From: Promethearchaeota archaeon
GTDB lineage: Archaea; Asgardarchaeota; Lokiarchaeia; Sigyniarchaeales; SOKP01
Assembly: GCA_030606485.1 (NCBI GenBank)
Contig: JAUWGH010000005.1
Coordinates: 260,129 to 324,128 of the forward strand
DNA: 64,000 bases
Direction of reading: 5' to 3'
A program made the position numbers and the translations under genes. This document shows positions 27,565 through 56,424 of this stretch, in pieces. Each line of letters begins with the position of its first letter. Positions within the stretch are counted from its first letter, which is position 1. The notes under the pieces were generated by a model. It did not search any database, had not been told where the DNA came from, and saw only the letters and a list, made by a program, of their open reading frames with translations.

Positions 27565-27825
27565 ATTTTAGAAAAAAATGTTAATAATTTACTTAAAAAA
27601 CTAATTATAAAAATAATTTTATGTTTAATCTTTTATCTTTAATCCCAAGAACTTCTTTTTTTACTGATCAATTGTCTCAATTATTATTAATATCTTTTAA
27701 AGAGTGATTAAAATATATTAATATCATTATATAATATAATCAGAAAAAATTTAGTTTTAAAATTAGTATAAAAATTAAATAACATTAAAAAAATATTAAA
27801 AATATTAAAAAAATGATTGTATATT

Positions 27826-29055
27826 ATGAGTAAAGTGTCCAAAGAGTCTATTGCACCATTTTTAAAATATTTTGATAAAAAATTTCTTAATCTCAAAGAA
27901 ATTAAAACAATTGGGGATTTAGCAAAATTACCAATATTTGCGTATAAATTTTTCACTAAAAATGATACAAAAATCATTTCAAAACTATTTGACATTAATG
28001 TTATTGAAGATTTAAGTAAATTAGATAAAGAAAAACCATTTGACCAATTCTTTTCTCTTGATGCCACCGAAGATCCAATTAAACAAGCTAAAATCGTTGA
28101 AAAAATGAGAAAACAAATTGATATACTTACTGCAAAAATCCCTAACCTTGATATAAAATTAAAGAAAGGGATAATAATAAGTGATGTTATTGTTCGAGTA
28201 GCGAAAAAGAAAGAACCGATTAAGAAGAAAGAAACTAAAATTATTTGCGTGGGACTAGAAAATGCAGGTAAGACGGCTATATTGAGTAGATTTGGAGGAC
28301 GTTTAGGAATCCAAGAATTAAGTAAATTAAAACCTACAAAAAAAGTGAAGAGAAGAGTAGTAGAGACGAAAGATCTCACCCTTCTCATATGGGATTTCGG
28401 AGGCCAGGAAATATATCGAAAGATGTATTTAAAAGAACCCGAGAAATATTTTTTCCAAACACAACTTGTATTATATGTGATAGATGTACAAGACCCGGAT
28501 AAATTTGACGAATCTTTTGAATATTTCTCCCAAATTTTAGAAATATTTAAGATTTTTGAGGAAAAACCGTATTTTTTGATTTTCATTCATAAAAGCGACC
28601 CGGATTTACGCGAAACTCCTGAATTTCAATTAAATGTTGGTATAGCCAAGGTAGGGATAAATGATCTATTTAAAGAGCGATATATGGAGTATGAAGTTTT
28701 TACAAGTTCAATTTACGATCTTATTAGTTCAGAACCAAAATTTGCAAGATTTCTCAAAGACGTACTAAGAGACCAACAATCTTTAACAAATCCAACCTTA
28801 GAAAAGGTAGAAGGTCTTGGGAAAATACTGGACAGCACTCTAACCGCAGTTATTCGGCTCTCTGAAAATGTAATGGTTGAATTTGATGGAATATATAAGA
28901 GATTTGAAACTCTAGAAAATCAATTCAAGGCGGGTTTGTCAGCTCCACCACCAGAACAACCCAAAGCCACCGAAACTGATTCCCAAAGTACTCGAACGAC
29001 AGTATTAAATGAATTAAAGGAATTATTTCAAAAAAGAAAGAAAGTAAATTATTAA
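27826..29055 (+). CDS. Arf-like small GTPase with helical N-terminal and coiled C-terminal extensions
   Basis: Eukaryote-like small GTPase. The G domain occupies about residues 135-310: P-loop GLENAGKT (143-150), switch II WDFGGQE (189-195) and HKSD (255-258) in place of NKxD. WDxGGQE with GLxNAGKT is the Arf/Sar/Rag-side pattern. The N-terminal 120 residues contain two similar helix-hairpin segments (TIGDLAKL and VIEDLSKL), resembling small HhH domains. The C-terminal 80 residues hold a short coiled coil and a Pro/Gln/Thr-rich linker. There is no lipidation signal at either end. ATG 27826 is preferred over an in-frame TTG at 27817. It probably acts as a molecular switch; partners may include the Roadblock and longin-like proteins of this window (inference). 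Confidence 0.88.
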   Translation: MSKVSKESIAPFLKYFDKKFLNLKEIKTIGDLAKLPIFAYKFFTKNDTKIISKLFDINVIEDLSKLDKEKPFDQFFSLDATEDPIKQAKIVEKMRKQIDILTAKIPNLDIKLKKGIIISDVIVRVAKKKEPIKKKETKIICVGLENAGKTAILSRFGGRLGIQELSKLKPTKKVKRRVVETKDLTLLIWDFGGQEIYRKMYLKEPEKYFFQTQLVLYVIDVQDPDKFDESFEYFSQILEIFKIFEEKPYFLIFIHKSDPDLRETPEFQLNVGIAKVGINDLFKERYMEYEVFTSSIYDLISSEPKFARFLKDVLRDQQSLTNPTLEKVEGLGKILDSTLTAVIRLSENVMVEFDGIYKRFETLENQFKAGLSAPPPEQPKATETDSQSTRTTVLNELKELFQKRKKVNY

Positions 29056-34385: not shown

Positions 34386-36038
34386 ATGAGAATAATGAAT
34401 AAAGATTCCATCAAGTACTGGCTAAGAAAAACATTTATAAGAGACATAAACTTGCCAAAGAATTCATTTATTTATTTATTGCTCTCTTTTTTTGCAATTA
34501 TAATAATCACCGAAGTTCTTCTATTCAAATATGTTGTGTTAACTGGGGAGGAATTTGCTTTAGATCTTGAGAGAATCACTATATTAATTGTGGTCTCTCT
34601 CAGTTTTCTTGCTTCTGGTTGTCTTGTTGATAAAATAAAGAATAAAACAAGGTTTTATAATATAACCTTACTAATTTGCATAATAGGACTGTTCTTAACT
34701 AATTTTACTGGAACCATTTTTGATTATATTGGTTTATTTATTATACTTCTTTCATTACCACAACTGGTCGTACTATGGTTTACAACATTAATTCATGAAA
34801 CAAATATCCTTAATAGAGGAAGAATAACGGCTTTCCTGATAATATCATGTTCCATTTTAGGTTTGATTGGAATTGCTTTTATATTCTTTGAGTTCCTTTA
34901 TCCCTATCTTTTCATTGTAGAAACTGTTCTTTTAATCATTATTGCCTTATATTCAAGATCTTATAAGTACATAGAAACTGAAGAAAGACTCATATCTGAT
35001 GAAAAATATATGAAAATTATTTTTGAGAAACATTTTTTTCGATATTCTTCAAGTTTTACTGTATTAAGTTTTATTTTAGGTGATTTACTCGCACGTTATG
35101 GTTTTGACTTGGATATCATAGCATTCTCAATCACTTCTTTTTTTTATTTACTGGCGGCTGGCTGGTTTTTAGATAACATTGGTCGAAAATATGCAATTGT
35201 CTTGGGAATTTTAGTTACTTCATTTTTCCTTATATCCTATGGTTCATTTGTTGAAGCAGAAGTAATATATGGCATACCAAAAAAAATCTATCTCTCAATA
35301 CATTATGGCTTCTCAATTACACCCCTTTTGCTTGCCATTTTTACAGTGTCCGGAGATTTTTCAACAGAAAGAGGGAACTTAAAATATAGAGGGCGAATTA
35401 ATGGACTTCTAATATCTTTAATGTTCATTGGCATTGTCATTGGATATGTTTTTAGTAAATGGATAAATGGATTATATAACGCCAACCCCGATTTGAATCT
35501 GATAATACCTGAGTTCCCTGACCGGATAAATTCATTTCTTCTAGTTATTCTTCTCGTTTGGATGATGGGAATGAAAGAATTCTTAGTCTCTAAAGAACTT
35601 CAATGGGCTTCCACTATTAAAAATCTTTATTTATTCAACTATGATGGCATTTGTCTTTATTTTCATAACTTAGAAAAGGATGAAAAATCCAAAATAAAAA
35701 TTGAAAAATTTGAATTGGACGAAGATCTAATTTCTGGCGGTCTTACTGGAGTAATCACCATAATCTCTGAAATAACAAAGAGTAAAAAACAACTTAGAAA
35801 AATTGAAAAAGAAGGAGTAAATCTATTTTTTTCTTATGGAAAATATCATATCGCCGCTTTAATCTCAAGCATGGATTTACCAATTTTACTGAAAAAACTC
35901 GATGATTTTTCAAAAGAATTTGAACAAAAATTTGAGAAAGAACTGAAAAATTTTAAAGGACATATTAATCCTTTTAATCCAACTAACTATCTTGTAAAAA
36001 AATATTTTGTCCAAAAATATTCAGTTTTTATGGAATAA
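34386..36038 (+). CDS. MFS-type membrane protein with C-terminal longin/Roadblock-like domain
   Basis: About twelve transmembrane segments fill residues 25-400 with MFS character, including the loop motif LDNIGRKYAIVLG after the seventh or eighth helix. Residues 405-550 are soluble and cytoplasmic by the positive-inside pattern. They read as strand-strand-helix-strands-helices: LYLFNYDGICLYF, then LDEDLISGGLTGVITIISEI, then GVNLFFSYGKYHIAALIS, then a long helix. The same layout and the E/D-x-x-I-S/Y-G-L core occur at the C terminus of the 7TM protein at 55366. It resembles longin/Roadblock domains, which in Asgards and eukaryotes act on small GTPases. Transported substrate, if any, is unknown. 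Confidence 0.78.
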   Translation: MRIMNKDSIKYWLRKTFIRDINLPKNSFIYLLLSFFAIIIITEVLLFKYVVLTGEEFALDLERITILIVVSLSFLASGCLVDKIKNKTRFYNITLLICIIGLFLTNFTGTIFDYIGLFIILLSLPQLVVLWFTTLIHETNILNRGRITAFLIISCSILGLIGIAFIFFEFLYPYLFIVETVLLIIIALYSRSYKYIETEERLISDEKYMKIIFEKHFFRYSSSFTVLSFILGDLLARYGFDLDIIAFSITSFFYLLAAGWFLDNIGRKYAIVLGILVTSFFLISYGSFVEAEVIYGIPKKIYLSIHYGFSITPLLLAIFTVSGDFSTERGNLKYRGRINGLLISLMFIGIVIGYVFSKWINGLYNANPDLNLIIPEFPDRINSFLLVILLVWMMGMKEFLVSKELQWASTIKNLYLFNYDGICLYFHNLEKDEKSKIKIEKFELDEDLISGGLTGVITIISEITKSKKQLRKIEKEGVNLFFSYGKYHIAALISSMDLPILLKKLDDFSKEFEQKFEKELKNFKGHINPFNPTNYLVKKYFVQKYSVFME

Positions 36039-39078: not shown

Positions 39079-39444
39079 TTAAATTAATAGGGCAATCTTC
39101 TGAGCAGATCGTTTACAATCTAACATTATTAGTCCGAGTTTCACATCAACCGTTGTTGAGACCGTTAGAACGGCGTTTTCCCCACAGTACATAACTAATA
39201 AAATGCCATTTGTCCCCCTTACAAGGATATGTTCAAGGATACCCTTGTTTAACTCCATTGCGGCACGCTCGCCAAGTGAAATAATAGCTGCCGTCATTGC
39301 GGCTATGCGTGTTTCATCAATCCCTGCCTCTAAAGCCGAAGCGATTGGAAGTCCCTCCGCACTAACGATAGCTGCAGCTTTAATCTCAGGAATGGATGAA
39401 AGCAATTGTCTCAGAATAGAATCTAATGTTTCGATACTGTCCAT
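39079..39444 (-). CDS. Roadblock/LC7 domain protein
   Basis: Single-domain Roadblock protein (121 aa), the fold of MglB, Ragulator/LAMTOR subunits and dynein light chain LC7. Typical features are the helix IETLDSILRQLLSSIPEIKA, the strand turn AAIVSAEGLPIASAL, the long helix AAMTAAIISLGERAAMEL, then strands EHILVRGTNGILLVMYCGEN and a final helix. The family forms dimers and commonly serves as a platform or activating protein for small GTPases, in Asgards and eukaryotes especially Rag/Arf-like ones. The obvious candidate partner is the Arf-like GTPase at 27826, but distance makes this inference. It is divergent from rpo7. Confidence 0.93.
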   Translation of the reverse strand: MDSIETLDSILRQLLSSIPEIKAAAIVSAEGLPIASALEAGIDETRIAAMTAAIISLGERAAMELNKGILEHILVRGTNGILLVMYCGENAVLTVSTTVDVKLGLIMLDCKRSAQKIALLI

Positions 39445-55244: not shown

Positions 55245-55365
55245 CTTTTTTTAATTCTTATTAAAATTTATATTTACTATTGTTAATATATAATAGAAAG
55301 AAAAAGACATTTTGTAAGTATTGAAAATTATACAATTATAAATTTATGGTCCATTGAAGTATAGT

Positions 55366-56424
55366 ATGGCACTAAATTACTCGCCAGAATTTTATTGGTA
55401 TCTCATAGGTGCAATATTTTGCTTAATAGCCACTATCATAATTGTATGGAATATCTTTTCAAAAAAAAATAAGACCCACTTTTACTATTTTTTTTCAATA
55501 TTAAGTATTTCCATTTTCTACTTTTTTACAAGTTTCTCATTCCTGTTTTTAAGTATAGATTTATATCGAGCGAGTTGTTTCGCAGCTACAATTAGTACAA
55601 TCTTTTTATTTTTATTTATCGACTTTACATCTCGTGAATCAGTAAGTCCTATTAATATAGCATTAATAAGTCTTTTAAGTGGGATGGTATTTATCTTAGT
55701 TTGGCAAGAGAATTCCATTATATTCTATGACGGATTCGGATATCCATCTATTAAAACATCGGGAATATTTACGGTTGTTGGAAATTTAGTTTTATTGTTA
55801 AATGTGTTGTTCTATCTTTATTGGGCTTTAAGAATTTCAATAAAAGCACCCAAAAAGTTAAGAAAATCATCATTAATCTTTTTATGTGGTACGCTACTTT
55901 TATTAAGTGGTTTTTTTATTTGGAGTGCTAAATATCTATTAATGGCTCCAATTGGTATATTTTTTACTGGGACAGGTATGTTGGTTTCAATAATTTCATG
56001 GGTAAAAGAACCAAAAATCCTTTATATATTACCATTTAAAGCCTATAGATTAATCGTTCTTCACGGGAAATCGGGTGTTCCATTGTTTAATTACAATTGG
56101 GTGGAATATAAAGTGGATGAAGCTATTTACTCAGGCCTTCTACATGCACTAAATAATGCAATACAAATCCTAAAAAGGGGCTCAATAAAACATATTTTAT
56201 TAACAGAAGGAGTTTTAATTATTAAAAAATCGGAAAATGTTTTAGTTGGATTAATTGCTGATAAAACATCAAAATTTTTGACTAATTGTATCAATAATTT
56301 CACAGATTCATTTGAAAAAAAATATAATTCAGTTTTAAGTGATTGGAACCATCAAACTGATCAATTTACTTCAGCAAAGGAATTAATTGAAAGACATTTT
56401 GCAAATGTTCCATCTCACTTATAG
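55366..56424 (+). CDS. 7TM membrane protein with C-terminal longin/Roadblock-like domain
   Basis: About seven transmembrane helices (residues 10-215) in the manner of the 7TM sensor region found at the N terminus of some histidine kinases. A cytoplasmic domain of about 135 residues follows: strand YRLIVLHGKSGVPLFNY, helix DEAIYSGLLHALNNAIQIL, strands IKHILLTEGVLIIKKSEN and VLVGLIAD, then a long helix. The order, the S-G-L core and the E-G-V/N-L strand match the tail of the MFS protein at 34386. No kinase or HAMP domain is present. ATG 55366 preferred; TTG 55354 is in frame. Probably a membrane receptor or GTPase docking protein (inference). Confidence 0.75.
   Translation: MALNYSPEFYWYLIGAIFCLIATIIIVWNIFSKKNKTHFYYFFSILSISIFYFFTSFSFLFLSIDLYRASCFAATISTIFLFLFIDFTSRESVSPINIALISLLSGMVFILVWQENSIIFYDGFGYPSIKTSGIFTVVGNLVLLLNVLFYLYWALRISIKAPKKLRKSSLIFLCGTLLLLSGFFIWSAKYLLMAPIGIFFTGTGMLVSIISWVKEPKILYILPFKAYRLIVLHGKSGVPLFNYNWVEYKVDEAIYSGLLHALNNAIQILKRGSIKHILLTEGVLIIKKSENVLVGLIADKTSKFLTNCINNFTDSFEKKYNSVLSDWNHQTDQFTSAKELIERHFANVPSHL

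Follow-up and report, generated by a model that had tools for sequence, protein, structure and literature searches.

The window, the whole stretch of 64,000 nucleotides of Lokiarchaeon DNA that was analysed, contains the gene P0001, which is predicted to join a polytopic MFS module to a C-terminal longin domain through a short juxtamembrane linker (Table 1). No comparable ORF is present on the strand opposite 34386-36038. An assembly chimera was ruled out, because full-length homologues at 52-94% identity are present in other genomes, including named, independently assembled Lokiarchaeota MAGs.

Table 1. Features of the MFS-longin locus and of the second family member, numbered from the first nucleotide of the window
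Feature	Position	Strand	Evidence
MFS-longin fusion gene P0001, 550 aa	34386..36038	+	ATG start, uninterrupted frame, homologues
MFS module, residues 1-396, twelve membrane segments	34386..35573	+	Pfam, hydropathy, module search
Cytoplasmic loop 2-3, presumed degenerate MFS motif A (G78, D82, K85)	34617..34655	+	
Cytoplasmic loop 4-5, HETNILNRGR	34794..34823	+	
Cytoplasmic loop 8-9, presumed second motif A (GWFLDNIGRK)	35160..35189	+	
Cytoplasmic loop 10-11, GDFSTERGNLKYRGR	35352..35396	+	
Juxtamembrane linker, residues 397-411 (15 residues), conserved E398, E404, W407	35574..35618	+	
Predicted longin domain, residues 412-541	35619..36008	+	HMM and profile comparisons
Second family member in the window, P0002: 6-7TM module and C-terminal longin (within 55999-56421)	55354..56424	+	longin HMM, E 1.7e-18 and 2.7e-26

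Hydropathy averaged over 38 aligned homologues gave twelve membrane segments in P0001, the weakest of them being TM7, and positive charge was found at the N-terminus and in loops 2-3, 4-5, 6-7, 8-9 and 10-11. This distribution fits a protein with both termini inside, and the tail is therefore placed in the cytoplasm, in a topology derived from hydropathy and charge only. The HMM match delimits the soluble C-terminal domain to residues 404-541 of 550. The original prediction of about twelve helices of MFS type followed by a cytoplasmic alpha/beta domain at residues 405-550 was thus borne out with nearly the same borders, and motif A was found in addition. The Pfam MFS_1 model covered residues 68-353 of P0001 (E 1.6e-5) at 24.5 bits vs the curated cut-off of 33.4. 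Five fused relatives exceeded this cut-off (L042, 65.4; L122, 55.2; L183, 44.6; L050, 35.5; and L144, 34.5 bits), three (L008, L016 and L057) matched under it, and three more (L030, L026 and L023) gave no match at E 0.01. MFS transporters also topped the Foldseek list obtained with the weak full-length AlphaFold model of P0001 (pLDDT 44.0).

The signatures of loops 2-3 and 8-9, which we take to be MFS motif A, are well kept among the 38 MFS-longin homologues, a count that leaves out three non-MFS rows (L003, L126 and L184). The gate residues D263, G266 and R267 of loop 8-9 and G353 were each present in 38/38, and loop 2-3 retained G78 in 28, D82 in 33 and K85 in 28. For loop 4-5, the corresponding counts were 34 for R144, 34 for G145 and 36 for R146, with the whole HETNILNRGR stretch invariant in nine of nine close homologues, and for loop 10-11 they were 33 for D324 (E in the other five) and 29 for G336.

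The tail domain is predicted to be a longin, not a Roadblock domain. Since the AlphaFold models were poor (pLDDT 41.3 for the tail domain and 44.0 for the full-length protein), this fold assignment rests on profiles. A profile of 55 diverse members of the tail family, compared with all PDB sequences, gave 13 matches at E up to 10, headed by TRAPPC1 (E 3.2e-4, spanning the first two strands and the first helix), Trs23 (0.0063) and a fly TRAPP subunit (0.0085), and including BET5 at E 0.42. When the 55 members were scanned singly against Pfam at E up to 1, Sybindin was matched by 23 of them (best E 1e-4), the FUZ/MON1-type longin by 11 (best E 7.4e-4) and the INTU/CCZ1-type longin by five (best E 2.3e-3). 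The tail profile also aligned end to end, over 122 columns, with a profile of GTPase-fused longins (99.6% probability, E 1.1e-23), the latter built from eight other longins, of which five are GTPase fusions. This eight-longin set matched Longin, MON1-type longin and adaptor small chain in Pfam, with one GTPase-fused longin passing the Pfam Longin cut-off (26.8 vs 26.2 bits), and gave 46 PDB matches at E up to 1, among them MON1 and AP sigma chains and also ribosomal eL8. The profile of the full-length MFS-longin alignment had no direct PDB match at E up to 1.

Roadblock was rejected, the hhalign probability being 0.8% against the Roadblock set of the window itself (four rows only, Neff 1.3), and the Roadblock ORF of the window was absent among the listed matches of the tail-domain HMM. 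The longin/Roadblock-like fold proposed at first was thereby narrowed: its longin half is backed by the TRAPPC1/Trs23 matches and the likeness to GTPase-fused longins, and its Roadblock half was dropped. A TRAPP subunit proper was rejected as well, with P0001 scoring 14.7 bits vs the Pfam Sybindin cut-off of 25; Sybindin exceeded that cut-off in one of the 21 genomes searched and in none of the 14 control genomes. A longin SNARE was rejected on position, the longin of P0001 being C-terminal and not N-terminal before a SNARE helix and anchor.

Structure prediction followed by fold search, suggested with the original prediction as a check of the tail, gave weak evidence. The weak domain model (pLDDT 41.3) shows the order E-E-H-E-E-E-H-H after the TM12 helix, which is the longin element order; in the full-length model (pLDDT 44.0), the first two strands lead into two helices, and no more than two other strands can be seen. 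Foldseek with the domain model ranked a TRAPP chain first (E 1.8e-3, TM 0.35), followed mostly by longin and Roadblock chains. VIA-align placed Mediator first, at a best Z of 3.8, and no longin at the top, a result for which a poor model may be responsible.

Fused homologues proved to be widespread. A search of 58 relatives returned full-length matches at 52-94% identity from many genera, and of seven loci that encode relatives in named Lokiarchaeota MAGs, six are full-length, at 56-94% identity. Querying with just the MFS module gave 38 matches, in 26 of 39 genomes, and 31 of the 38 sit in frames of 525-611 residues; the longin fusion is the rule for this MFS module. As the module is found in only 26/39 genomes, its function would be an accessory one. 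The remaining matches comprise one in which the MFS and longin halves of a fused gene are divided by an in-frame stop codon (L192:998-2680), one whose longin is replaced by a cysteine-rich tail resembling a zinc finger, for which Pfam names MFS_1 only (L191:1676-3142, minus strand), one ordinary MFS protein (L193), one at a contig start with the longin retained (L029), one broken remnant and two near contig ends. Searches for relatives in IMG/VR, and on plasmids by tblastn, returned none. We also noticed a longin fragment 92% identical to P0001, away from a contig end and without the MFS part (L040:4974-5276; G003:C421), which is either a broken gene or an assembly fault.

Among 33 non-redundant MFS-longins (the 38 rows minus five near-copies), the linker had the highest mean pairwise identity (0.439), followed by the gate loops (0.407), the longin (0.343), the membrane helices (0.225) and the outer loops (0.187). 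Within the membrane helices, no position of the MFS-longin alignment has a charged or amide residue in 60% or more of the rows. One might suppose that an ordinary carrier has picked up the tail by accident, or bears it passively, given the patchy occurrence of the carrier (26/39 genomes) and the copy split by a stop codon; however, many genera retain the fusion, with the linker and the spacing fixed, and conservation is higher in the longin than in the membrane core. Because of this conservation pattern, we consider an accident highly improbable.

Conserved gate residues together with variable helices fit a conformation-changing protein whose ligand differs by subfamily while its output stays constant, and the MFS-longins would fit a scheme of variable input and conserved output. 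We give an even chance to the reading that P0001 is an MFS-derived transceptor or receptor that reports its state via the longin to small GTPases. In such a protein, ligand binding or transport would flip the MFS module between two conformations, and the movement of TM12 and of the cytoplasmic loops would reach the longin by way of the linker. Probably paired with a second copy of itself or with a different longin, this domain could then recruit, activate or hold a small GTPase at the membrane. P0001 would combine in one chain what a transporter and a Ragulator- or TRAPP-like platform do together.

The strongest rival turns the signal round: P0001 would be a working transporter with the longin as its regulatory or sorting domain, and a GTPase or a fold-back of the longin would open, close, place or remove the carrier. 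SNARE longin domains regulate their own protein by folding back, the gate motifs of a working MFS are retained in 38/38 homologues, and the cytoplasmic loops and the linker are the most conserved parts, as would be expected for a docking tail. No common substrate-site residues are kept, however, and the linker and longin also occur on proteins whose sequences do not mark them as carriers, namely 7TM proteins and single-pass proteins with ectodomains; an output module would account for this better than a regulator of a carrier. We regard the control of the carrier by its tail as rather unlikely.

The linker provides a further link between membrane-attached longins. A tryptophan just before the first longin strand was found in 41/44 polytopic longins, in 11/24 of those with 5-8TM and in 10/22 of those with 1-4TM, vs 5/59 soluble longins; the three polytopic longins without it are of the 13TM kind. 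In the MFS-longins, E398 was kept in 35/38 (D in three) and E404 in 36/38. The full motif is lacking in P0002 and in many other 7TM longins, and the shared linker is thus a feature of only part of the longin family. In a tree of 79 domains, taken from 89 with matches passing E 1e-12, a group of 46 rows brought together MFS, 7TM and single-pass proteins and one soluble protein with an SH-aLRT of 89, which is not decisive, and the GTPase-fused longins formed a separate starred clade. Profile comparison found no homology between the MFS module and the 7TM modules (probabilities of 4.9% and 3.7%), and the two 7TM module sets reached 21.5% against each other. Judged by these sequence comparisons, the simplest account would be that one linker-longin unit was joined to different, unrelated membrane parts.

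A longin profile matched in 147 of 148 genomes of the phylum. The source genome alone has 20 longin copies, so that the tail, real as it is on this MFS carrier, has a wider scope than was originally noted, P0001 being one copy of the 20. Nine copies are membrane-attached (an MFS protein, four proteins of 7TM type with P0002 of this window among them, a 13TM protein and three single-pass ones), and the soluble ones comprise two longin-GTPase fusions (L103 and L107) and nine others. The three single-pass proteins (L099, L101 and L112) are encoded by frames of 1318-1567 residues and have large ectodomains and one helix, with an additional C-terminal tail after the longin. For five other genomes, 85 longin ORFs were sorted by Kyte-Doolittle peaks and frame length, and not by a trained topology program, into 5 with at least nine helices, 15 with 5-8, 16 with 1-4 helices, 7 GTPase fusions and 42 soluble ones; this census covers 82 of 102 profile matches, the 20 left out having E above about 1e-6, and the longin HMM A3, partly built on membrane-attached longins, may under-count distant soluble ones. 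Several unrelated membrane proteins bear this tail, and this suggests that they use a common means of relaying surface signals into the cell. The broader proposal is a large Asgard receptor family, for which we claim no restriction to Asgard archaea, in which swappable inputs (12TM carriers, 7TM, 13TM and single-pass ectodomains) would feed one GTPase-controlling cytoplasmic longin; next to the histidine-kinase receptors and the GPCRs of eukaryotes, it would stand as a transmembrane signalling architecture of its own, and the connection of nutrient transporters with Rag/Rab GTPases in eukaryotes could have arisen from it. We hold this proposal to be possible, but we put it forward tentatively, as somewhat doubtful in its full extent.

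Next in strength among the rivals is a pure assembly role, in which the longin would pair membrane proteins as homo- or heterodimers and have no part in GTPase control. Longin and Roadblock domains form dimers, according to the accessible part of PMC10933270, and heterodimers would fit the tandem MFS-longin pairs of G023, G033, G035 and L037 as well as the tandem 7TM-longins at G000:C13, in G097 and in G042; these tandem genes are a hint of longin heterodimers. On the other hand, longins of the same family are fused to GTPases in the source genome, and the nearest solved relatives are longins of GEF complexes, which makes a role in assembly only quite unlikely in our estimate. Returning to a report of P0001 to small GTPases, the kinship with longin-GTPase fusions of the same genome would point, indirectly, to a GTPase role of its longin.

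The neighbourhood was compared at eleven MFS-longin loci, and no GTPase gene was found as a conserved neighbour or operon member; a Rab-like gene lies nearby in G010 only. In that genome, of another genus, the MFS-longin has a Roadblock gene as its neighbour on one side and, at a distance of about 3.3 kb on the opposite side, the Rab-like gene. The window itself has a GTPase gene at 27817-29055 (Arf match, E 2.1e-22) and a Roadblock gene at 39079, the latter 3 kb from the MFS-longin with three genes between. Since the GTPase gene is some 5 kb upstream of P0001 and separated from it by five other genes, pairing the two is a guess; according to the accessible part of PMC10933270, Asgard gene layout does not show which regulator pairs with which GTPase. 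In the source genus, the MFS-longin is preceded by a short-chain dehydrogenase gene and followed by an M29-type aminopeptidase-like gene, named by eye. The commonest neighbours were LMW phosphatase genes (6/11 loci, four also with a macro-domain gene), as assigned by clustering, with Pfam applied to L036 only. The flanking phosphatase genes are those of L036 (3796-4882 and 8554-9069), L037, L038, L039, L011 and L008, an arrangement kept across genera, and the macro-domain gene flanks the MFS-longin in L036, L037, L011 and L008.

The longin fold handles small GTPase switches in human cells. By profile, the closest solved relatives of the P0001 tail are the TRAPP core longins (TRAPPC1/Bet5 and TRAPPC4/Trs23) and MON1-CCZ1, and a longin-like order of strands and helices appears in the weak domain model (pLDDT 41.3); the known longins are soluble GEF subunits, whereas the longin of P0001 is the tail of a 12TM protein. 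Asgard longin-GTPase fusions belong to the same domain family, but in them the longin is N-terminal and the protein soluble. Such fusions have already been published (accessible parts of PMC10933270 and PMC4917890), and the accessible part of the latter gives the number of longin-like domains in Lokiarchaeum as 41, of which five occur in fusions with Arf-like GTPases. A longin in a membrane-linked protein is shared with the longin SNAREs VAMP7, Ykt6 and Sec22. In these the longin is N-terminal and is followed by the SNARE helix, in contrast to the C-terminal longin after twelve helices in P0001. SNARE longins serve other functions, as stated in the accessible part of PMC10933270.

Two systems resemble P0001 in their proposed way of working. 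In arginine sensing by SLC38A9-Ragulator-Rag, a transporter likewise reports to small GTPases via a Roadblock/longin-type platform. SLC38A9, which signals via an N-terminal tail, is not an MFS protein and relies on separate platform subunits, whereas P0001 would have the platform-type domain in the same chain; the analogy is one of working, not of kinship. The second system is that of the yeast glucose sensors Snf3 and Rgt2, transporter-like proteins whose role is in sensing and not in transport (PMC5890159, accessible part). Both belong to the MFS and have a long C-terminal tail but, unlike P0001, are not known to carry a longin. We found no report of an MFS transporter-longin fusion in the open-licence literature searched, and one may exist elsewhere or stand unremarked in a supplementary table; the accessible parts of PMC10933270, PMC10936438, PMC11291895, PMC7997004, PMC9834061 and PMC4917890 do not describe a longin behind a multi-helix membrane module. 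Asgard genomes are rich in small GTPases and longins. With a longin built into membrane sensors themselves, a signal from outside would have a physical path to a GTPase. It would also become testable whether sensing from transporter to GTPase, of the SLC38A9-Ragulator-Rag kind, goes back to archaea, with the shared juxtamembrane tryptophan and linker serving as a search handle and as residues to mutate.

Several other longin proteins were noticed on the way. The gene at L098:1132-3384 (plus strand) encodes a 13TM protein with a C-terminal longin and without a Pfam match; L052 and L134 are similar, and frames of this kind, of 740-860 aa, recur across the phylum. L110 (G000:C1, near 472056) is a soluble protein of 850 residues that by eye combines a RelA/SpoT-type part, TPR repeats and a longin. 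Finally, L043 of G054 is a repeat-rich protein in a 1138-residue frame that ends in a tryptophan-linker longin like those of the membrane forms, and similar frames of 1112-1154 residues recur many times in that genome.
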